The notes beneath the pieces were generated by a model, which ran no database searches, was not told the DNA's origin, and was given only the letters and a program-made list of their open reading frames with translations. From Faecalicatena orotica (GTDB lineage Bacteria > Bacillota > Clostridia > Lachnospirales > Lachnospiraceae), in NCBI RefSeq assembly GCF_003149245.1, contig NZ_QGDL01000015.1, forward strand, positions 1 through 64,000: 64,000 nt of DNA. Reading direction: 5' to 3'. Positions 23,902-58,680 of the stretch are shown here, piece by piece. Numbering within the stretch: position 1 is the first letter of the stretch; every line of letters begins with the position of its first letter. A program made the translations under genes and the position numbers.

Positions 23902-24969
23902 ATGGATAGAAAAGAGATTTTAGGGAATAAAAAAAGAATTGTGATAAAAGTAGGAACTACGACAGTTACCTATGACGAGACAGGAAATATCAATCTGGAT
24001 AAACTGGAGAAGTTCGTGAGGATTCTGATTAACTTAAGAAACAAGGGCAGGGAAGTCATTGTAGTTTCCTCCGGTGCGGTCGGTATTGGAAGAAATGTAC
24101 TGGGGCTTTCCGGCCGTCCGGAGACAGAGGCGGCTAAGCAGGCATGCGCCGCGGTCGGCCAGGGGCGGCTTATGATGATCTACGAAAAGCTTTTTAACGA
24201 ATACAGCCAGCTGACAGCACAGGTACTGCTGACGAAGGAATCCATAACGAACGAGGAATGCAGGAAGAATGCAAGACAGACCTTTGACGAGCTCTTCAGG
24301 ATGAATGTCGTGCCTATCGTGAACGAAAATGATGCAATATCTGTGGATGAACTGTCATATGGTAATTTCGGGGATAATGACACACTTGCGGCATATGTGG
24401 CAAAACTGGTAGATGCGGACCTGCTGATCCTCATGTCTGACATTGAAGGCCTGTATACGGATGATCCGAAGAAGAATCCGAATGCGAGGTTTATCCATAC
24501 GGTAGTCGGGATCGACGACAAGCTGGAGCAGATGGCGAAAGGGGCTTCGAATGACACAGGCACGGGCGGGATGTCTACCAAGATTGATGCTGCAAAGATT
24601 GCGACGGCATCGGGTGCAGATATGGTGATTGCAAACGGGGCTAATATTTATTCAATCAATGACATCATGGCAGGAAAGAAGATCGGCACGCTGTTTTTAT
24701 CCAGAGAGCATGGCAGGGAATTAGAAAATGAACTTGCTCCGGAACGTGCAACGTACCGCAGACAGGCTAAAAAACAGAAGAAGGAAGGGCCAAAGGATGA
24801 AGCATACCGGAATGAAATGCAAAAAGAAGGTTTTGTGAAGCCGGGATTTCCTTCTGACAGGGAGTCTGCAAAGGGGCAGGCAGTAACGATGAAACAGGAT
24901 ACCACGGAGTTTTCGATGATTATGACAGGAGGCAGTTATGGGCAGTTATATGGAAACATTGGGCAGTAG
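23902..24969 (+). CDS. proB: Glutamate 5-kinase with unusual C-terminal tail
   Basis: 355 aa. Residues 1-265 are an amino-acid kinase: '[13 protein letters not shown]', 'VSSGAVGIG', '[11 protein letters not shown]' and '[15 protein letters not shown]'. It phosphorylates glutamate in the first step of proline synthesis. Instead of a PUA domain, the last 80 residues are a charged, low-order tail (residues about 275-355, rich in K, E, Q), and its end overlaps proA by 32 bp. The tail may be real or the product of a lost stop. Start ATG has AGAGGAAGG upstream. Confidence 0.9.
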
Positions 24970-26188
24970 GGCAAAGACGGCATCCAGAGAGGCAGGGAAG
25001 CTGAGTACGAATGAAAAGAATAAGGGACTGTTATCTGTTGCAGAAGAACTGCTTCTGGAGATGGAAGCCATTCTGCAGGAAAATGAAAAGGATGTCAGCG
25101 AGGCAGAAGCGCGTGGGATGAAGGCTTCGCTTGTAGACCGGCTCAGGCTCACGGAAATCCGCGTACAGGATATGGCAGAAGGGCTGCGGCAGATAGCGGC
25201 TCTGGATGATCCGACTGGGGAAGTCCTTTCCATGAAGAACCGGCCGAACGGACTACGGATCGGGAAAAGAAGAGTGCCGCTCGGGGTCGTGGGAATTATT
25301 TATGAGTCCAGGCCAAATGTCACGGCTGATGCATTCGGGCTTTGCTTTAAAACCGGGAATGCCGTGATATTAAGAGGCGGGAGCGATGCGATCCATTCGA
25401 ATAAGGCAATCGTCCATGCGGTAAAGGAGGGGCTCAGGAAGGCGAAACTGCCCCAGGATCTGATTTTGCTTGTTGAGGACACAAGCCGGGAGACCGTCAA
25501 TGAAATGATGAAACTGCACGGATTCATCGATGTACTCATTCCAAGGGGTGGAGCGGGCCTGATTGCCAGCGTGGTCCAGAACAGCACAGTACCGGTAATC
25601 GAGACCGGAACCGGAAACTGCCATATTTATGTAGATGAAGGTGCTGATTTAAACATGGCAGTGGATATTATCGAGAATGCGAAGACGCAGAGAATGGGAG
25701 TATGCAACGCCTGCGAATCGCTGGTGATTCACGAACATGCGGCCGCGCAGGTGATCCCGATGATTGTAAGCAGGCTGAAACTGCACTCAGTGGAAATCCG
25801 CGGGGATGAGACTGCCTGCGCACTGAGTGGGGAAATTGTACCCGCATCTGAGGAGGACTGGGGAACAGAATATCTGGACGCTGTAATCTCAATTAAGGTT
25901 GTAGAATCACTGGATGCAGCGATTAAACACATCAACACTTACAACACAGGGCACTCCGAGTCGATTATTACAGAGAGCTATGCCAATGCACTGCGATTTC
26001 AGGATGAGATTGATGCAGCGGCAGTCTATGTAAATGCCTCCACACGCTTTACAGACGGTTTTGAGTTCGGCTTCGGGGCAGAGATCGGGATCAGCACCCA
26101 AAAACTGCACGCAAGGGGTCCTATGGGGCTGGAGGCACTGACGACTACAAAATATATCATTTTTGGCAGCGGCCAGATCCGCAGATAA
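24938..26188 (+). CDS. proA: Gamma-glutamyl phosphate reductase
   Basis: 416 aa, full length. Aldehyde-dehydrogenase-type fold with the catalytic cysteine in '[12 protein letters not shown]' (Cys259), preceded by '[17 protein letters not shown]' and followed by '[20 protein letters not shown]'. It reduces glutamyl phosphate to glutamate semialdehyde. The start at 24938 has AGGAGG 5 nt upstream, inside the proB tail, so the genes are translationally coupled. The hairpin at 26228-26279 follows. Confidence 0.95.
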
Positions 26189-26227
26189 AATTTTTAACGA
26201 ATATTTGACTAAAATTAAAATTTTTCG

Positions 26228-26313
26228 AATAACACTTGCATAATATACAATACGGATGTATAATTATGCAAGTGTTATTTATGTTTATGCAGAGTGATTA
26301 CAACTATTATGCA
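26228..26313. promoter_or_regulatory. proA terminator-like palindrome overlapping ArgR-like sites
   Basis: Positions 26228-26244 pair perfectly with 26263-26279 (17 bp), and an inner ATACA/TGTAT stem closes it to a 7-nt loop. The arms contain TTGCATAAT and ATTATGCAA, the same half-site seen before argG, and two more TTATGCA copies follow at 26284-26291 and 26307-26313. It may end proBA transcripts and also bind ArgR for argC. Confidence 0.55.
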
Positions 26314-26400
26314 GAAGAGGGGGACTGTACACGTCTTTCTTCCATGTTACCGTTTACACCCTAAGGGCGTGCACAGCAACAAGGGGAAGTCCGGAAACTC

Positions 26401-26429
26401 TTTACTTCATGCAAAAAGTGGTATATGAT
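26401..26429 (+). promoter_or_regulatory. argC promoter
   Basis: TTTACT at 26401-26406, 17-bp spacer, TATGAT at 26424-26429. A CATGCA half-site lies in the spacer. AGGAAAGGAAG before the argC ATG is the ribosome site. Confidence 0.55.
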
Positions 26430-26461
26430 AATAAGTTAGAAAAGGAAAGGAAGTAGTACTT

Positions 26462-27502
26462 ATGATTAAAGCAGGGATTATCGGGTCCACAGGATATGCA
26501 GGCGGCGAACTTGTCAGGATCCTGACAGCACATAAAGAAGTGGAGATCGTCTGGTATGGATCCAGAAGTTACATAGACAAGAAATATGCACAGGTGTATC
26601 AGAACATGTTTCAAATTGTAGACGCAGTGTGCATGGACGATAATATGGAGGAACTGGCTGGCCAGGTAGACGTGATTTTTACGGCAACTCCCCAGGGACT
26701 GTGTGCGTCACTTGTAAATGAAGAAATTCTTTCAAAAGTTAAGATTATAGATTTGAGTGCAGATTTCAGAATCAAAGATGTGTCTGTATATGAAAAGTGG
26801 TATGGGATTGAACACAAGAGTCCGGAATTTATAGAAGAAGCTGTATACGGTTTGTGTGAAATCAACAGAGAAGATGTAAAAAAAGCGCGGCTGGTCGCCA
26901 ATCCGGGATGCTATACGACCTGCTCGATCTTAACTGCATATCCGCTGGCAAAAGAAGGCCTGATCGATATGAGTACACTGATCATAGACGCGAAATCCGG
27001 AACCTCAGGGGCCGGAAGAGGCGCAAAGCTTCCTAACCTCTACTGTGAAGTCAATGAAAACATAAAGGCATATGGCGTGGCAACACACCGGCATACCCCT
27101 GAGATAGAAGAACAGCTGGGATATGCTGCAGGAGAAAAAATCCTTGTGAATTTTACCCCCCATCTGGTCCCAATGAACAGAGGAATCCTCGCAACAGAAT
27201 ATGCAAAACTAAAAAAAGAAGTCACCTACGAAGAAGTAAAGGCCATATACGATAAATACTATGCCGACGAAAAATTTATCCGGGTACTCGACAAAGATAT
27301 CTGCCCCGAGACAAAATGGGTCGAAGGCAGCAATTACGTAGACATAAACTTCAAAATAGACGAAAGAACCGGACGCATCATCATGATGGGGGCTATCGAC
27401 AACCTCGTAAAAGGCGCGGCAGGTCAGGCAGTGCAGAACATGAACCTAATGTTTGGCTTTAAAGAAACAGAAGGACTGGAACTAGTACCAATGTTCCCTT
27501 AA
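26462..27502 (+). CDS. argC: N-acetyl-gamma-glutamyl-phosphate reductase
   Basis: 346 aa. N-terminal NADP-binding 'IIGSTGYAGGELVRIL' and catalytic Cys150 in 'ANPGCYTTCS', plus 'SGAGRGAKLPNLYCEVNEN' in the substrate domain. It makes N-acetylglutamate semialdehyde, third step of arginine synthesis. First gene of argC-(GNAT)-argJ-argB-argD. Its stop codon abuts a repeat element (27501-27604), which separates it from the next gene. Confidence 0.96.
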   Translation: MIKAGIIGSTGYAGGELVRILTAHKEVEIVWYGSRSYIDKKYAQVYQNMFQIVDAVCMDDNMEELAGQVDVIFTATPQGLCASLVNEEILSKVKIIDLSADFRIKDVSVYEKWYGIEHKSPEFIEEAVYGLCEINREDVKKARLVANPGCYTTCSILTAYPLAKEGLIDMSTLIIDAKSGTSGAGRGAKLPNLYCEVNENIKAYGVATHRHTPEIEEQLGYAAGEKILVNFTPHLVPMNRGILATEYAKLKKEVTYEEVKAIYDKYYADEKFIRVLDKDICPETKWVEGSNYVDINFKIDERTGRIIMMGAIDNLVKGAAGQAVQNMNLMFGFKETEGLELVPMFP

Positions 27503-27604
27503 TTGGGGACGTAATCTTTTTAAGGTTTACTACGTCCCCAATTGAGTTAAGTGGTGTACCTAAATGAATGAAGTGGTGTACCGGAATGAAAATTGTGGTG
27601 TACC
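27501..27604 (+). repeat. Hairpin plus 22-bp iterated repeat, copy E1
   Basis: AATTGGGGACGTA (27501-27513) pairs perfectly with 27531-27543. Then GTGGTGTACC occurs at 27551, 27573 and 27595, exactly 22 bp apart. Copies with the same layout are at 29379-29454 (inverted) and 58604-58680 (direct). The first bases overlap the argC stop. Confidence 0.85.
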
Positions 27605-27627
27605 CGATTGGAATTGAGAGGATAAAT

Positions 27628-28077
27628 ATGATTCGTGTAATGACAATAGAAGACTATGACGGTGTATATGCCCTGTGGATGACAATCAAGGGTTTTGGCA
27701 TTCGCAGTATTGATGATTCCAGAGAGGGAGTGAGACGCTTTCTTAAGAGAAATCCGGCAACGAGTGTGGTTGCAGAGGAGGACGGGAAGATTGTCGGCAG
27801 CATTTTATGCGGACATGATGGCAGAAGGGGTTGTATGTATCATGTGTGTGTGGATCGGGAATATCGAAGACGCGGTATTGGCAAAGGCATGGTTGTCATG
27901 GCTATGGAGGCATTAAAAAAGGAAGAAATCAGCAAGGTTTCTCTGATTGCATTTACAAAAAATGATGTGGGAAATGCATTCTGGAATACGATAGGATGGA
28001 CAGAGCGGCTGGATTTGAATTATTATGATTTTGTTTTGAATACGGAAAATATTACAGCTTTTAATCAAAGCGAATAA
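27628..28077 (+). CDS. GNAT-family N-acetyltransferase
   Basis: 149 aa from ATG 27628, with GAGAGGAT upstream; a longer frame runs back into the repeat. The GNAT core is visible: 'VYALWMTIKGFGIRSIDDS', 'ATSVVAEEDGKIVGSILCGH' and the acetyl-CoA loop 'VCVDREYRRRGIGKGMVVMA' (R-R-x-G-I-G), then 'NAFWNTIGW'. The acceptor is unknown; it is not ArgA-like by length. It lies between argC and argJ, inside a segment bounded by inverted repeat copies E1 and E2. Confidence 0.85.
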   Translation: MIRVMTIEDYDGVYALWMTIKGFGIRSIDDSREGVRRFLKRNPATSVVAEEDGKIVGSILCGHDGRRGCMYHVCVDREYRRRGIGKGMVVMAMEALKKEEISKVSLIAFTKNDVGNAFWNTIGWTERLDLNYYDFVLNTENITAFNQSE

Positions 28078-28146
28078 TTTTTGAAAGTTTTTATTTTAAC
28101 TATTGAATACGTACGAATTGAATGGGTAAAGAAAGGAATGGAAAGT

Positions 28147-29370
28147 ATGAAAATTATTAAAGGCGGAGTAACCGCAGCAAAAGGATTTGAGGCAGCATCG
28201 GTGGCAGCAGGGATTAAGTATAAAGACCGTACGGATATGGCACTTATATATAGTAAGAAACCGTGCAAGACAGCAGGAACATTTACGACAAATGTTGTAA
28301 AAGCAGCACCTGTTAAGTGGGACAAAAATGTAGTGGAAAACGGTATTAAATCACAGGCAATCGTTGTAAATTCGGGTATTGCCAATGCCTGTACAGGTGA
28401 AGAGGGTTATGGCTATTGCGAAGAAACTGCAAAAGCCGCAGCAAAAGAACTTGGCATAGAGGCAGAAGGTGTCCTGATCGGCTCAACAGGTGTGATCGGC
28501 ATGCAGCTTCCAATTGATAAATTAAAAAATGGTATAGCAAAACTTGCTGTTAACAAAAATAAAGATATTGAAAGCGGAACGCAGGCTGCGAAAGCGATTA
28601 TGACTACAGATACAGCAGAAAAAGAAATTGCTGTAACAATTGAAGTGGGCGGTAAAACAGTAACAATCGGCGGGATGGCAAAGGGCTCTGGGATGATTCA
28701 TCCAAATATGTGTACGATGCTTTCCTTTATTACTACCGATGCGGTTATTTCAAAGAAAGCACTGCAGAGTGCATTAAGTGAAGACGTCAGTGAGACTTAT
28801 AATATGATTTCTGTAGATGGTGATACATCCACAAATGATACAGTTCTGCTGCTCGCAAATGGGCTTGCTAAGAACGAAAAAATCAAATACGGAACAAAAG
28901 ATTATGAAAAATTTGCGGAAGCCCTTCACATAGTAAACGAATATCTTGCAAAAAAAATAGCAGGTGACGGTGAAGGTGCGACAGCATTGTTTGAAGTGAA
29001 AGTAGTGGGTGCATCAGACAAGACTCAGGCAAAAACTCTCGCGAAATCAATTGTTTGTTCCAATCTCACGAAAACCGCGATCGCAGGACATGATGCAAAC
29101 TGGGGGCGAATCTTGTGTGCAATGGGATATTCTGGTGCACAGTTCGAACCAGAAAAAGTAGACTTGTTCTTTGAAAGCAAAGCAGGGAAAATACAGATCA
29201 TAGAAAATGGTACTGCAATTGATTACAGCGAAGAAAAAGCAACAGAAATACTCTCTCAGTCCGAAGTAACAGCAATTGCCGATATCAAAGAAGGTGCAGA
29301 AACAGCAACTGCATGGGGATGCGACTTAACCCACGGATACATCGACATCAATGCAGATTACCGTAGTTAA
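28147..29370 (+). CDS. argJ: Bifunctional ornithine acetyltransferase / N-acetylglutamate synthase
   Basis: 407 aa from the ATG at 28147, preceded by AAAGGAATGGAAAG; an ATG at 28138 is too close to that site. The self-cleavage motif is '[13 protein letters not shown]', with Thr190 as nucleophile, and '[12 protein letters not shown]' and '[17 protein letters not shown]' are conserved. It transfers the acetyl group from N-acetylornithine to glutamate, making the cyclic arginine route. The codon choice looks more A-rich than in argB and argD, and the gene is boxed by repeats E1 and E2. Confidence 0.95.
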
Positions 29371-29378
29371 GTCATTTT

Positions 29379-29454
29379 GGTACACCACTTTTGACGTTTT
29401 GGTACACCACAAAAGTTAATTTGGGACGTAGTAAACATGAGAAATATTACGTCC
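29379..29454 (-). repeat. Hairpin plus 22-bp iterated repeat, copy E2 (inverted)
   Basis: GGTACACCAC at 29379 and 29401 (22 bp apart), then a GGGACGTA/TACGTCC stem at 29423-29454. It is the reverse complement of the layout at 27501-27604, so GNAT-argJ lies between inverted copies. It ends 14 bp before the argB start and may affect the argB leader. Confidence 0.85.
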
Positions 29455-29468
29455 GCAAGGAGGGTTTT

Positions 29469-30368
29469 ATGAACGAGAATATGCAGCAATACCTCGACAA
29501 GGCGCAGGTTTTGATTGAAGCGCTTCCGTACATCCAGCGTTTTAATCGTAAGATTATCGTTGTGAAATATGGCGGAAGTGCTATGGTTGATGAGGACCTG
29601 AAAAAGCAGGTTATTGAAGATGTGACTTTGCTGAAGTTGGTTGGCTTTAAGCCAATTATTGTGCATGGCGGCGGCAAGGAGATCAGCAAATGGGTAGGCA
29701 AGGTAGGCATGGAGCCGCAGTTTATTAACGGGCTGCGTGTGACGGATGCAGATACGATGGAAGTCGCAGAGATGGTGCTGGGCAAGGTAAATAAGAGTCT
29801 GGTGCAGCACGTGGAGGAACTGGGTGTCCGTGCTATTGGTATCAGTGGCAAGGACGGCGGACTTCTCAGGGTGGATAAGAAGCTTTCAGGCGGAGAGGAC
29901 ATTGGTTTTGTCGGTGAGGTAAAGAAAGTCAATGCAGACATTTTATATGATCTTCTGGAAAAGGATTTCCTCCCGATCGTATGCCCGGTAGGAATGGACG
30001 ATGATTTTAATACATACAATATCAATGCAGATGATGCGGCCTGTGCGATTGCGCGTGCCGTGAAAGCGGAGAAGCTTGCTTTTCTGACGGATATTGAGGG
30101 GGTCTATAAGGACCCGGAGGATCCGAAGACGTTAATCTCTGAACTAAGGGTTGATGAAGCCCAGAAACTGATGGCTGACGGATATATTGGAGGCGGCATG
30201 CTGCCGAAACTGCAGAACTGTATAGATGCCATAGAGAACGGGGTTTCCAGGGTGCATATTCTGGACGGGCGGATTCCGCACTGCCTGCTTCTGGAAATCT
30301 TCACAAACAGAGGGATCGGCACCGCAATTTTAAATGGAGAAGAAAGCAGGTATTATCATGGTGAATAA
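29469..30368 (+). CDS. argB: Acetylglutamate kinase
   Basis: 299 aa. Amino-acid kinase motifs '[20 protein letters not shown]', '[19 protein letters not shown]' and '[20 protein letters not shown]' are intact. It phosphorylates N-acetylglutamate, the usual feedback-controlled step. ATG at 29469 has AAGGAGGG upstream; the frame is open further upstream through repeat E2 but without homology. It overlaps argD by 11 bp. Confidence 0.95.
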
Positions 30369-31542
30369 AAAGATTCAGGCCTCAGAAGAGAATCTGATCC
30401 ATGTGTACAACCGTTTTCCGGTTGCACTGGAGCGCGGAGACGGCATGTATGTATATGATACAGACGGCAGGGAATATCTGGACTTTGCCGCCGGGTTTGC
30501 AGTGACCGGGCTCGGATATAATCACAAAGAGCTGAATGATACCCTGAAGGAACAGATTGACAAGATCTACCATATCTCCAATCTTTACTATCATGAGAAC
30601 TGCGGAGAGGCGGCCAAAGAGCTGAACCGGATTTCAGGAATGGACAGAGTGTTCTTTACGAACAGTGGAAGCGAGGCAAATGAAGGCGCGCTGAAGGCGG
30701 CGAGAAGATACGCATATACAAAGCAGACGGGAAGATATGAGTTTATCGCGATGGAAAATTCATTTCACGGAAGGAGCTTCGGCGCCGTGTCGGTTACAGG
30801 ACACGACTCATACCGGGAACCATTCGAGCCGGTTGTGCCGGGCGTACGTTTTGCAAAGTTTAATGATCTGGACAGTGTAAAGGAACTTATAAATGATAAG
30901 ACGTGTGCCATTATTCTGGAGGCTCTTCAGGGGGAAGGCGGCATCAATCTGGCTTCTTGGGAATTCATGAACGGCATCCGGGAACTGTGTGATGAAAACG
31001 GTATTTTAATGATCTGCGATGAGATTCAGTGCGGGATGGGACGTACCGGTGATTATTTCACCTATCAGGGATTCGGCGTAAAACCGGATATTGTTACGAT
31101 GGCAAAGGCGATCGGGAACGGCATCCCGGTAGGAGCTTTTGCAATGACAAACGATGTTGCAGAATATTCTTTAAGACCGGGAGACCACGGGGCGACCTAC
31201 GGAGGAAATCCGCTGGCCTGCACAGCCGTGAAAAAGGTCATTGAAATCTTCGAGAGGGACCACATTGTAGAGCATGTAAGGCAGGTGGCGCCATATCTGG
31301 AGAAGCGGCTGGATGAGCTTGTTGATGAACTGGACTGTGTTGTCAGAAGAAAAGGAAAAGGACTGATGCAGGGGCTGGAATTCAATATACCTGTTGCTGA
31401 AATCAATCAAAAAACAATCGCGGAGGGACTGCTTGTGATACAGGCGCAGGGCAATGTAATCCGTTTCCTCCCTCCGTTAATCATGGAAGAAAAACATGTT
31501 GATGAGATGATTGAACGCCTAAAACGCGCTCTTACAAGATAA
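30358..31542 (+). CDS. argD: Acetylornithine aminotransferase
   Basis: 394 aa, PLP-dependent class III aminotransferase. '[19 protein letters not shown]', '[16 protein letters not shown]' and the PLP lysine in '[14 protein letters not shown]' are present. It converts N-acetylglutamate semialdehyde to N-acetylornithine. Start ATG at 30358 overlaps the argB end by 11 bp; ATG 30334 is the alternative. It is the last arginine gene here. Confidence 0.94.
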
Positions 31543-31632
31543 ATACTTCAAGATAAAAATACTTATAAAAACCATTCATTGGGACATACTACTTATGACA
31601 CGCAGAATAAAAACTGCAGGAGGTATGAGAAA

Positions 31633-32064
31633 ATGATTGGTTTTTTTATTGCCCTGCTCTCAGGAGCATTGATGAGTGTGCAGGGTGTATTTAACACACA
31701 GGTGACAAAAACAACCGGCATGTGGGTCGGCAACGCATGGGTGCAGCTGTCTGCATTTGCGGTCTGTCTGGTGGCCTGGTTTATCACAGGGCGGGACAGC
31801 ATAACGGCAATTGCAAAAGTAGAGCCGAAATATATGCTTCTGGGCGGGGTGATCGGCGCGGGGATCACTTGGACAGTCATCAAAAGTATGTCTGCACTCG
31901 GACCGGCGAAGGCCGCGCTTCTGATCGTGATCGCACAGTTAATTGTGGCATATGTCATTGAACTGCTCGGTATTTTCGGAGTGGATAAGGCACCTCTGGA
32001 CTGGAGAAAAATCGGGGGACTTGCACTTGCACTGATTGGGATCGCCATATTCCAGTGGGAATGA
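31633..32064 (+). CDS. DMT-type small membrane transporter (DUF606/YdcZ-like)
   Basis: 143 aa with five predicted membrane spans. 'GFFIALLSGALMSVQGVFNT' and 'WVGNAWVQLSAFAVCL' near the N-terminus and 'GPAKAALLIVIAQLIVAY' match the DUF606/YdcZ branch of the drug/metabolite superfamily, which usually occurs as small proteins or pairs. ATG 31633 has AGGAGGT upstream. Substrate unknown. It may be co-transcribed with argD (90-bp gap) or have its own leader. Confidence 0.75.
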   Translation: MIGFFIALLSGALMSVQGVFNTQVTKTTGMWVGNAWVQLSAFAVCLVAWFITGRDSITAIAKVEPKYMLLGGVIGAGITWTVIKSMSALGPAKAALLIVIAQLIVAYVIELLGIFGVDKAPLDWRKIGGLALALIGIAIFQWE

Positions 32065-32194
32065 CGGGGCAGGCTGTAATAAAGATGTAACAAAAACGTA
32101 AAAATATGTATTGTAATTTAATCTATAATTCGTTACAATATTAATGTCCGGCATTGGGGGATTTCTAAACGTCTGGTTCAGACGGGAGGATAAG

Positions 32195-32848
32195 ATGAAG
32201 GGCAAGAGATTAAAACGAATCTGTACATTTCTGTGTATATTCACTGCCGCAGCAGTCCTGACGGCGGGGTGTGCGAAGGAAAAGGCAGATGATCTGACGG
32301 AGCTTGAGTTAGAACAGACCGGGCAGGGTCAGGCAGAGACGAAGGGAAAAGAAACAGAAGGGGCTGTGAACGGCGGTACAGAGGAACAGAAGGATGAAGA
32401 CACAGTTTTTGTTTATGTCTGCGGCGCGGTGAACACTCCGGGAGTATATGAATTATCCGGCAAAGCCAGGGTATATGAGGCCATTGCACGGGCAGGCGGC
32501 ACAAGAGCTGACGCTGCATCTGAATCACTAAATCAGGCAAGGGCAGTAACGGATGGGGAGCGCATTTATATACCAACGCTGGAAGAACTGGAAAAAGGGA
32601 TTGTAGACGGCGAAGTGCCGGAAGTAACGGGATCGGATCAGAAAGATGAGGGAAAGATAAATATTAATACGGCTGGAAAAGAGGACTTAAAGACCCTGCC
32701 CGGTATAGGTGATGCCAAGGCAGACAGCATCATTTCTTACCGGGAAATGAACGGAGGGTTTCAGGCCATTGAGGACCTGATGAATGTTGAGGGAATCAAA
32801 GACGGCGTGTTTAATAAAATAAAAGACAAAATTACAGTTACAGGCTAG
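32195..32848 (+). CDS. comEA: ComEA-type DNA-binding competence lipoprotein
   Basis: 217 aa. A signal with lipobox LTAGC (Cys26) precedes an acidic linker, an SLBB domain (residues about 68-140, 'VFVYVCGAVNTPGVYELSGK') and two helix-hairpin-helix motifs at the C-terminus ('ININTAGKEDLKTLPGIGDA' and 'FQAIEDLMNVEGIKDGVF'). ComEA binds incoming double-stranded DNA outside the membrane. Lipid anchoring replaces the membrane span of Bacillus ComEA. GGGAGGA lies upstream. comEC follows after three other genes. Confidence 0.85.
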   Translation: MKGKRLKRICTFLCIFTAAAVLTAGCAKEKADDLTELELEQTGQGQAETKGKETEGAVNGGTEEQKDEDTVFVYVCGAVNTPGVYELSGKARVYEAIARAGGTRADAASESLNQARAVTDGERIYIPTLEELEKGIVDGEVPEVTGSDQKDEGKININTAGKEDLKTLPGIGDAKADSIISYREMNGGFQAIEDLMNVEGIKDGVFNKIKDKITVTG

Positions 32849-32850
32849 AA

Positions 32851-32908
32851 TGTGTTTGAGTATTCAGTGTATAATCAGGAAACAGCAGTACATATGATTG
32901 ATCAAACA
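32851..32908 (+). other. Hairpin with GTGTTTGA arms after comEA
   Basis: GTGTTTGA (32851-32858) pairs with TCAAACAC (32901-32908), with partial extension inward and a 28-nt loop containing TATAAT. A related arm occurs at 12778. It could be a weak terminator or hold a promoter for the response regulator. Confidence 0.35.
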
Positions 32909-32940
32909 CGCTCAATGTAAGAGTTAAGGGAAAGAGGAGT

Positions 32941-33630
32941 ATGGGCAAGAAGAAAATCTTAGTAGTAGATGACGAAAAATTAATTGTAAAAGGGATTCGT
33001 TTCAGCCTTGAGCAGGACGGCATGGAAGTAGATTGTGCCTATGACGGCGAAGAGGCGCTAGAGTATGCGAAGAACTGTGAGTACGATCTGGTACTTCTTG
33101 ACGTAATGCTTCCAAAGCTGGACGGATTTCAGGTCTGCCAGCAGATCAGGGAATTTTCGGATATGCCGGTTGTAATGCTGACGGCAAAAAGTGAGGATAT
33201 GGATAAGATTCTGGGACTGGAATACGGTGCAGACGACTATATTACAAAGCCATTCAACATTCTGGAGGTAAAAGCCCGCATCAAGGCAATCATGAGAAGA
33301 ACTGCAAAGAGAGAAGAACCGGCCAACAGTACAGTAATCGTGAAGGGCACCATGAGGATCGACTGCGAAAGCCGCAGGGTATTTATCGGGGAGCGGGAGA
33401 TCAATCTGACAGCGAAAGAATTCGATGTACTGGAGCTGCTGGCAATGAATCCAAATAAGGTATACAGCAGGGAGAACCTGCTGAATCTGATCTGGGGCTA
33501 TGATTATCCCGGAGATGCAAGAACAGTGGATGTACACATCAGGAGGCTGCGTGAGAAGATCGAGCTGAATCCGAGCGAGCCGAAATATGTACATACAAAG
33601 TGGGGAGTTGGTTATTATTTCCAGGGGTAG
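32941..33630 (+). CDS. OmpR-family response regulator
   Basis: 229 aa. Receiver domain residues 4-118 with acidic pocket 'LVVDDEK' and phospho-acceptor Asp54 in 'LLDVMLPKLDG'; then a winged-helix DNA-binding domain (about 130-229) with 'RTVDVHIRRLREKIE' recognition helix. It resembles WalR/YycF-type regulators, but orthology is not proven. AAAGAGGAG precedes the start. It overlaps its kinase gene by up to 44 bp. Confidence 0.9.
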   Translation: MGKKKILVVDDEKLIVKGIRFSLEQDGMEVDCAYDGEEALEYAKNCEYDLVLLDVMLPKLDGFQVCQQIREFSDMPVVMLTAKSEDMDKILGLEYGADDYITKPFNILEVKARIKAIMRRTAKREEPANSTVIVKGTMRIDCESRRVFIGEREINLTAKEFDVLELLAMNPNKVYSRENLLNLIWGYDYPGDARTVDVHIRRLREKIELNPSEPKYVHTKWGVGYYFQG

Positions 33631-57474: not shown

Positions 57475-58612
57475 AGGATATATGAAAATCACAAAACAAA
57501 ATGCAGCCATCATCATTCTCTATCTGGTGGTTTTCTTCGGAATCACTCTAATGATACAAAGTTCTGTCAAATCAACGATGAATGACAGCTATACAGCACA
57601 TAGCGTAAAGCTAGCATTTGTGGATGAAGATGGCGGAGAAATGGCAAAAGGGCTTATGCAGTATCTTGAAAAGTACCATCAGGTAACATTGACAGAGAAC
57701 AATAAAGAAGAATTACAGGAAAACATGTTCTATTCGAACATCGAATATATTGTAAAGATTCCTGCCGGATTCGAGGAAAAATGTCTGGACGGCGATGAAA
57801 AACTGTCTGTGACCAAAATTCCGGGTTCATACACAAGCTTCTATGTAGACCAGCAGATCAACAGCTTTCTGAATAACATGAAAACATACAACGCAGCAGG
57901 GTATACAGTTGGAGAGGCAGTCAAAGCAGTAAATGAGGCAAAGGAACCATCAGTAACAATGCTGGCCAGTAACGGAAACGCAGGAGAGGCACCGGTATAC
58001 AGTTACTATTTTCAATACATCCCTTATCTCCTGCTGAGCATACTCTGCTATGTCCTTGGAAACATCCTGTCCGTTTTCCATAAGCCAGACATCCAGAAAA
58101 GAATGCAGGCAAGTGCGGTTTCCGCACGCAGACAAAATATGGAGGCACTATTGGCGGCATCTGTATTCGGCCTGGTATTGTGGGGAATCAGCATGGCCGG
58201 GAATCTAATCCTGTATGGAAAAGAATTCCTGCAAAGCAAAAACGTTCCATACTACATCATAAACTCCCTAATCATGCTGGTGGTGGCATTATCACTCGCA
58301 TACATGGTCGGAATGATTACAAATAACACGAATGCACTGAACGGAATCGTTAATATACTCTCCCTTGGGATGGGCTTCCTCTGCGGCGTCTTCGTCCCAT
58401 TGGAATTACTGGGGAAAGGCGTAAAAACAGTTGCACAGTTCCTGCCGGTCTACTGGTACGTAAAAGGCAACGACCTGCTGGCCGAATACGGAAGCATCAC
58501 CGGAAATGTAAGGACAGAAATACTGCAGGCATTCGGAATACAACTCGTATTCGCAGCGGCAATCTTATGCATCGCAATGGTAATATCAAAAAGAAAGAGA
58601 TTAGGGACGTAA
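57461..58612 (+). CDS. ABC-2 type permease, subunit 2
   Basis: 383 aa with the same plan: one span (16-33), an external domain with 'FVDEDGGEMAKGLMQYLEKY', then five spans from about 190 to 375. It overlaps the previous gene by 14 bp with GGAGGGAAC as ribosome site. The last three residues (L-G-T) and the stop are contributed by the repeat element at 58604-58680, so the native end may have been replaced. Confidence 0.85.
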   Translation: MTIFKGYMKITKQNAAIIILYLVVFFGITLMIQSSVKSTMNDSYTAHSVKLAFVDEDGGEMAKGLMQYLEKYHQVTLTENNKEELQENMFYSNIEYIVKIPAGFEEKCLDGDEKLSVTKIPGSYTSFYVDQQINSFLNNMKTYNAAGYTVGEAVKAVNEAKEPSVTMLASNGNAGEAPVYSYYFQYIPYLLLSILCYVLGNILSVFHKPDIQKRMQASAVSARRQNMEALLAASVFGLVLWGISMAGNLILYGKEFLQSKNVPYYIINSLIMLVVALSLAYMVGMITNNTNALNGIVNILSLGMGFLCGVFVPLELLGKGVKTVAQFLPVYWYVKGNDLLAEYGSITGNVRTEILQAFGIQLVFAAAILCIAMVISKRKRLGT

Positions 58613-58680
58613 TATAGTTCAGGTTTACTACGTCCCAAATTAAGGTTTGTGGTGTACCAATTTGAAGTTTGCCCTGTACC
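58604..58680 (+). repeat. Hairpin plus 22-bp iterated repeat, copy E3
   Basis: GGGACGTA (58604-58611) pairs with TACGTCCC (58629-58636), then GTGGTGTACC at 58649 and a decayed copy, GCCCTGTACC, at 58671, again 22 bp later. Same layout as E1 at 27501. Confidence 0.8.

Follow-up and report, generated by a model that had tools for sequence, protein, structure and literature searches.

Between argC and argB of Faecalicatena orotica, a GNAT acetyltransferase gene and argJ are enclosed by two inverted copies of one repeat, here called E1 and E2. This raises the question of whether the repeats carried the two genes to the locus or settled around genes that were already there. The first-pass annotation of the window (the whole stretch of DNA analysed, 64,000 nt) read the segment as a transposon-like cassette without its transposase, with ends marked in the manner of TnsB- or IS21-type enzymes, and gave two separate insertions as an alternative. 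The features concerned are compiled in Table 1.

Table 1. Genes and repeat elements discussed in the text (window coordinates)
Feature	Coordinates	Strand	Description
argC	26462..27502	+	346 aa, native neighbour
E1 hairpin	27501..27543	+	palindrome core 27506-27538; extended stem AATTG/CAATT; start = argC stop codon
E1 array	27551..27604	+	three GTGGTGTACC units, starts 27551, 27573 and 27595; 22-nt spacing, in register with hairpin arm
GNAT acetyltransferase	27628..28077	+	native
argJ	28147..29370	+	native
E2 array	29379..29410	-	two GTGGTGTACC units at 29379 and 29401, 22-nt spacing, inverted
E2 hairpin	29423..29455	-	one arm mismatch (CGGACGTA); outer end adjoins argB Shine-Dalgarno AAGGAGG
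argB	29469..30368	+	native neighbour
Third window copy	58604..58680	+	palindrome, one GTGGTGTACC unit and one GCCCTGTACC unit

The description of E1 and E2 as inverted copies with a hairpin and an exact 22-bp iteration is borne out: they share one layout and form an 87-nt inverted repeat (arms 27503-27589 and 29372-29458, 79% complementary). Each element consists of a 33-nt palindrome, GGGACGTA-N17-TACGTCCC, followed by in-register GTGGTGTACC units at 22-nt intervals. The motif GGGGACGTA occurs 17 times in the window against 8.5 expected, and GTGGTGTACC, with at most one mismatch, 8 times against 1.57 expected; neither count is reached in any of 100 shuffles. Folded as single-stranded DNA (ssDNA), the E1 hairpin yields -13.6 kcal/mol (z -6.7) and that of E2 is weaker (-5.5, z -3.3). 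The hairpin of a further copy, on contig C6, is weak as ssDNA, being equalled or surpassed by 22 of 200 shuffles.

E1 and E2 are no private pair, but belong to a dispersed family with about 30 copies in the genome. The exact palindrome is found at 27 places in the 5.7 Mb (backward control, one per strand) and GTGGTGTACC at 26 (control, 4 + 5); 25 of the latter stand at the position of an array unit next to a palindrome that has one mismatch or none, the sole exception being C10:64023. A covariance model built from 26 own copies, which match it by construction, gives 57 matches in the genome at E ≤ 0.01, some of them a single palindrome read from both strands, and at least 33 matches at 30 or more distinct places at E 1e-6. 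According to the alignment of these 26 copies (consensus GGGGACGT), the common layout opens in most copies with an outer TTG; GGGACGTA and TACGTCCC come next, separated by 17 variable bases, and then a 12-nt spacer that usually starts with NAATT. GTGGTGTACC follows in most copies, then 12 nt, and many have a second unit, either GTGGTGTACC or GCCCTGTACC. The right arm of the hairpin lies in the 22-nt register of the array units, and thus the palindrome may itself be made of two diverged units placed head to head. The 17-nt loop (alignment columns 16-32) has halves of recurring 8-nt types, which occur in mixed combinations in this genome; in most of the listed copies from a second genome, G155, the loop halves pair into one long stem.

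Comparison of the argC-argB interval speaks against a cassette. In G148, a genome of the same genus, argC, GNAT, argJ and argB stand in the same order without the repeats, and the idea of a mobile GNAT-argJ segment therefore fails; the gene order and the nearest relatives of the genes likewise count against it. A relative with argJ but no repeats is an outcome that the first-pass annotation itself had named as refuting the cassette. GNAT adjoins argJ in 9 of 25 argJ loci (own locus included), with argC beyond GNAT in 7 of these, and the covariance model matches one of the 25, namely the own locus (contig ends truncate some of the loci). By identity ranks, argC, argJ and argB all have their nearest relative in G148. 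Relatedness was followed through pairwise identities rather than trees: the argJ identities show a correlation of 0.88 with those of argB (21 taxa), and the argC identities one of 0.63 with those of either gene (15 taxa). The compositional contrast suspected for argJ is real, with a GC3 of 0.32 against 0.55 for argB, 0.52 for argD and 0.46 for argC; it is weaker in G148 (argJ 0.44 versus argB 0.49) and does not by itself show a foreign origin. The gap between argC and GNAT measures 39 nt in G148 versus 125 nt here, and that between argJ and argB 69 versus 98 nt, the element being absent from G148 in both. Judged by these comparisons, argJ is a native gene that was not carried in by E1 and E2. 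The simpler reading is that both elements were gained in the own lineage, and separate insertion of each describes them best; this alternative, offered in the first-pass annotation, is the better one. Nothing here implies that either element acts in arginine synthesis.

A transposase with the same repeats at its ends, for which a search had been proposed, is present in the genome. The single match to the Pfam family Y1_Tnp (Y1, HUH, IS200-like transposases) is a RAYT gene at C20:1905-2699, an ORF of 264 aa scoring over the cut-off. It is enclosed by inward-facing repeat copies at 1818 (+) and 2710 (-), the same geometry as that of E1 and E2. Its only and best NCBIfam match is REP_Tyr_transpos (NF047646), with 74.4 bits against a cut-off of 80, and among solved structures its sequence matches 4er8 alone, the structure of a RAYT together with its REP hairpin. 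The same entry is the best PDB fold match of a structure model made of a related RAYT, that of locus L074 (pLDDT 87.8, pTM 0.68), which has the Y1 HUH fold and a C-terminal region predicted to be all-helical; no HTH family was found in the RAYT C-terminal region in Pfam at E ≤ 5. The HxH and Tyr columns are invariant across five aligned RAYT proteins. The named nearest relatives belong to Lachnoclostridium, Claveliimonas and Mediterraneibacter, all members of the Lachnospiraceae. Another RAYT-like ORF, 205 aa long (C4:116294-116833; L166 1271-1888), matches residues 74-253 of the C20 RAYT only and is without the HUH part.

The nature of this enzyme bears on the proposed TnsB- or IS21-type marking. 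Ends of a DDE transposon that had lost its transposase would account for iterated sites 22 bp apart, but in five genera such matching ends enclose a gene for a Y1/HUH enzyme, and each element holds a palindrome of the ssDNA-hairpin type. Since the gene between matching ends is a Y1 enzyme, TnsB/IS21 ends were rejected, and such an origin has practically no likelihood. What stands of the original proposal is the assignment of the repeats to a transposase system; its other half, a GNAT-argJ cassette, falls with the G148 locus.

The association of repeat and enzyme extends to related genomes. In a survey of 100 genomes of the family, an unselected test in which repeat counts per genome are lower bounds, the repeat is matched in 5 and RAYT relatives occur in 23. 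The four top RAYT scores (own genome G000, G035, G036 and G085) are those of four of the five repeat-bearing genomes, and in the 19 genomes with weaker RAYT relatives the repeat is absent at the same threshold. The fifth, G077, has at least two weak repeat matches without a RAYT relative at E 1e-10. Inward-facing repeat pairs also flank the RAYTs of G035, G155, G104 and G036 and of loci L072-L074. When 29 RAYT loci were compared, ten (L053, L157, L161, L163, L165, L072, L073, L074, L134 and L092) combined inverted flanks and a hairpin with units spaced by 21-23 nt, the units being recognized by eye. Of the 19 that remain, seven exceed the script margin with inverted flanks of a different type and twelve do not. 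The L077 RAYT (40% over part of the protein) is without inverted flanks and the L139 RAYT (44% over part of the protein) has flanks of another type. The letters of the array units are changed in L165, L092 and L134. An exception is G085, which has at least nine repeat matches, yet whose RAYT L134 (43%) is flanked by a related but different repeat of the GGGGACGG type. The array flanking L165 (G036:C55) is made of CCGTCAG-type units and retains the 22-nt spacing.

The gene itself keeps its place. An M18 aminopeptidase gene adjoins RAYT in all eight loci at ≥48% identity, own locus included, and RAYT therefore looks like a fixed, domesticated gene, judged from its neighbourhood. On its other side lies glyS in the own genome, G104 and G036, which represent three genera; the RAYTs of L134 and L092 are not beside an M18 gene, and the more distant RAYTs of L136 and L137 adjoin glyS. 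In the literature, as far as the consulted part of the report goes, RAYTs are described as vertically inherited single-copy genes (PMC8049555). In G148, glyS and the M18 gene are adjacent without RAYT, and the gap holds a degenerate GGGACGTA hairpin. This genome has no Y1_Tnp match in Pfam and no exact element, and covariance-model matches number 6 versus 57 in the own genome at E ≤ 0.01. As it represents one event, the absence of RAYT together with few repeats is suggestive only as evidence for a link between the two.

Copies of the repeat occupy gaps between genes, in the own genome often against a Shine-Dalgarno sequence (E2 at argB) or a stop codon (E1 at argC). A CCTCC or CTCCT ends 2-5 nt from the outer end of the hairpin in 7 of 27 own copies (raw count), and three further matches lie 18-41 nt from it. 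Nine sites were compared with G148 (E1, E2, C5:21495, C5:314261, C6, the nth side of C11, C13, C20 and window position 58604); for a tenth, the flank was not found in that genome. A clean empty site is seen at one of the nine, on C6, where G148 has CCTCCTTTATCAGC and the own genome has the element between CCTCCTTT and TTTATCAGC; this copy is inserted against a pre-existing CCTCC, with TTT at both sides. Most other gaps in G148 are too diverged for exact ends to be read. A Shine-Dalgarno-like site without the element exists in G148 at the nth, C5:21495, C6 and argB sites. The G148 gaps before metG and era (L125 and L124), where the own genome has element copies, hold other hairpins of a GGAC type, by eye GGACAC..GTGTCC and GGACAAAG..CTTTGTCC, which may represent a different repeat family occupying these positions.

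Placement of this kind would also be in keeping with elements retained as RNA structures, whether as hairpins that protect mRNA or as an insulator of translation ahead of argB, with a RAYT link that is only historical. The abutment of E1 on the argC stop and of the E2 hairpin on the argB Shine-Dalgarno, the proportion of own copies close to CCTCC/CTCCT and the presence of copies on both sides of one cupin gene common to G035 and G155 are consistent with such a function. Yet the repeat model matches none of the 24 other argJ loci, no Rfam family is found in 24000-33000, and repeat presence follows RAYT. Moreover, none of the terminator-like sites (three found, 1.8 expected) spans a complete palindrome of E1 or E2, although two overlapping plus-strand sites at 27491-27512 use the left arm of E1. 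Maintenance as RNA structures is therefore improbable.

Collectively, the dispersed copies, the RAYT gene between inward-facing copies, the co-occurrence across genomes and the array letters that differ with the RAYT point to a link between repeat and enzyme. E1 and E2 are thus probably copies, each inserted on its own, of a REP-like, non-autonomous element tied to the resident RAYT. The element would measure roughly 85-110 bp and combine a hairpin, in fixed register, with a short array of 22-nt units. By its predicted activity, the HUH/Tyr domain of RAYT would cut and rejoin the hairpin as ssDNA and so spread copies in trans, and the helical C-terminal region may read the array, whose 22-nt period corresponds to about two turns.

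The arrangement of the copies provides a further lead. In nine genomes, eight of which were chosen in addition to the own one for having the repeat or a RAYT, at least 16 pairs of neighbouring copies that do not hold a RAYT lie within 2.5 kb; among the copies listed, half of the 16 pairs (8) are inward-facing, the other 8 have both copies in one direction, and none faces outward. About 3.4 pairs are expected at random positions, and none of 20,000 simulations reaches 16; given 16 pairs, the probability is 0.01 for no outward pair and 0.03 for eight or more inward ones. An inward pair of G213 (C31) that, judged by its 878-nt spacing, brackets the L073 RAYT was counted as a RAYT pair, leaving the eight inward non-RAYT pairs. 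The excess of inward pairs round native genes is only a lead, because the null uses random positions though copies sit between genes, two of the counted pairs surround orthologous cupin genes, the 2.5-kb cut-off was not fixed beforehand and the counts come from the copies listed. The cupin gene concerned, the same in G035 (L153) and G155 (L159), is surrounded once by copies in the same direction and once by inward ones. Those enclosed genes that were inspected look like ordinary genes of the host. RAYT remnants were considered as former occupants of the non-RAYT pairs, the spacings being near 900 nt in some; tblastn found none in the pairs of the regions searched, and none was found in the own C11, C13 and C15 pairs, which are covered by whole-genome searches only.

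It is tempting to propose, though doubtful, that RAYT has a two-part substrate, with the HUH domain taking the hairpin as ssDNA and the helical C-terminal region binding the 22-bp array as a duplex, along one face of the helix. Two inward-facing copies would then be brought together and the enzyme would act on gene-sized segments enclosed by an inverted pair. This would account for the gathering of inward pairs round single native genes and for the absence of outward ones among the 16. An action of RAYT on the pair could in principle have carried GNAT and argJ in, E1 and E2 being the ends of the cassette. The geometry shared with the RAYT gene, the 8 inward and 0 outward pairs among at least 16 where about 3.4 are expected, and an argJ GC3 below that of argB would agree with this, but GNAT-argJ is in place without repeats in G148, GNAT adjoins argJ in other loci too, argC, argJ and argB share their nearest relative and their identities correlate, and in the C11 pair the radical-SAM gene follows nth in G148 as well (at the start of the aligned stretch). 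Such a transfer is very improbable.

As probable RAYT-linked insertions, E1 and E2 can be compared with known systems. In REP/RAYT systems, as portrayed in the consulted parts of the reports, short palindromes are dispersed in the genome, a resident HUH/Tyr gene lies between inverted copies, the enzyme gene is stable and genomes with the enzyme are richer in the repeats (PMC2817692, PMC8049555, PMC8266576). The present system resembles these (REPtrons; TnpA-REP) in its dispersed palindromes, its one resident HUH/Tyr gene between inverted copies, the stability of this gene and the greater frequency of the repeats alongside the enzyme; it differs, by the same partial accounts, in that the hairpin carries a phased 22-nt array and copies number tens, not hundreds. 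The unpaired GTAG/GTGG foot of canonical REPs is absent directly 5′ of the hairpin in the alignment of 26 copies. Within the excerpts consulted, the closest described group is that of the TIRYTs and their TIRtrons (Di Nocera 2013), RAYT-like enzymes with a C-terminal extension and flanking inverted repeats in moderately abundant families (PMC3733652, PMC6006769), which probably correspond to TnpAY1 subclass 2.1 of Quentin 2018. Here, too, the inverted repeats flanking a RAYT-like enzyme form a moderately abundant family; in contrast to the repeats described in those excerpts, GGGGACGT does not fit GGGGWSAS and the repeats contain a REP-like hairpin. The consulted portion of one report states that REP-like sequences were not found near subclass 2.1 genes (PMC6006769), and a phased 22-nt array is not mentioned in the consulted descriptions of TIRYTs and subclass 2.1 (PMC3733652, PMC6006769). 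With IS200/IS605 elements (IS608 and ISDra2) the system shares the Y1 HUH fold and, by prediction, hairpin substrates, but the copies round the RAYT gene are inverted and this gene keeps its place in the eight closest loci. CGTC-tagged REPs have, in the part of the source consulted, no flanking transposase gene and an unpaired CGTC (PMC3733652); the CGTC letters recur in the stem here, but paired. As both the GTAG foot and GGGGWSAS were looked for and neither was found, the repeat is classified as RAYT-associated, neither a canonical REP nor a TIR.

REP/RAYT systems are already known as a kind, and in the parts of the REP, RAYT and TIRYT literature covered by a search no family combining a hairpin with a 22-nt repeat was found named. 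What is new is the phased array joined to the hairpin, the change of array letters with the RAYT, the copies set against Shine-Dalgarno sites and the excess of inward-facing pairs round native genes. A RAYT held in one neighbourhood across genera may bear on what domesticated RAYTs do for their hosts, and G148, a congener free of RAYT, provides a natural comparison. The substrate of such an enzyme would have an additional part, phased at regular intervals and varying in its letters from one enzyme to another, and the subclass 2.1 RAYT clade, if the C20 RAYT belongs there, may thereby gain a candidate substrate.
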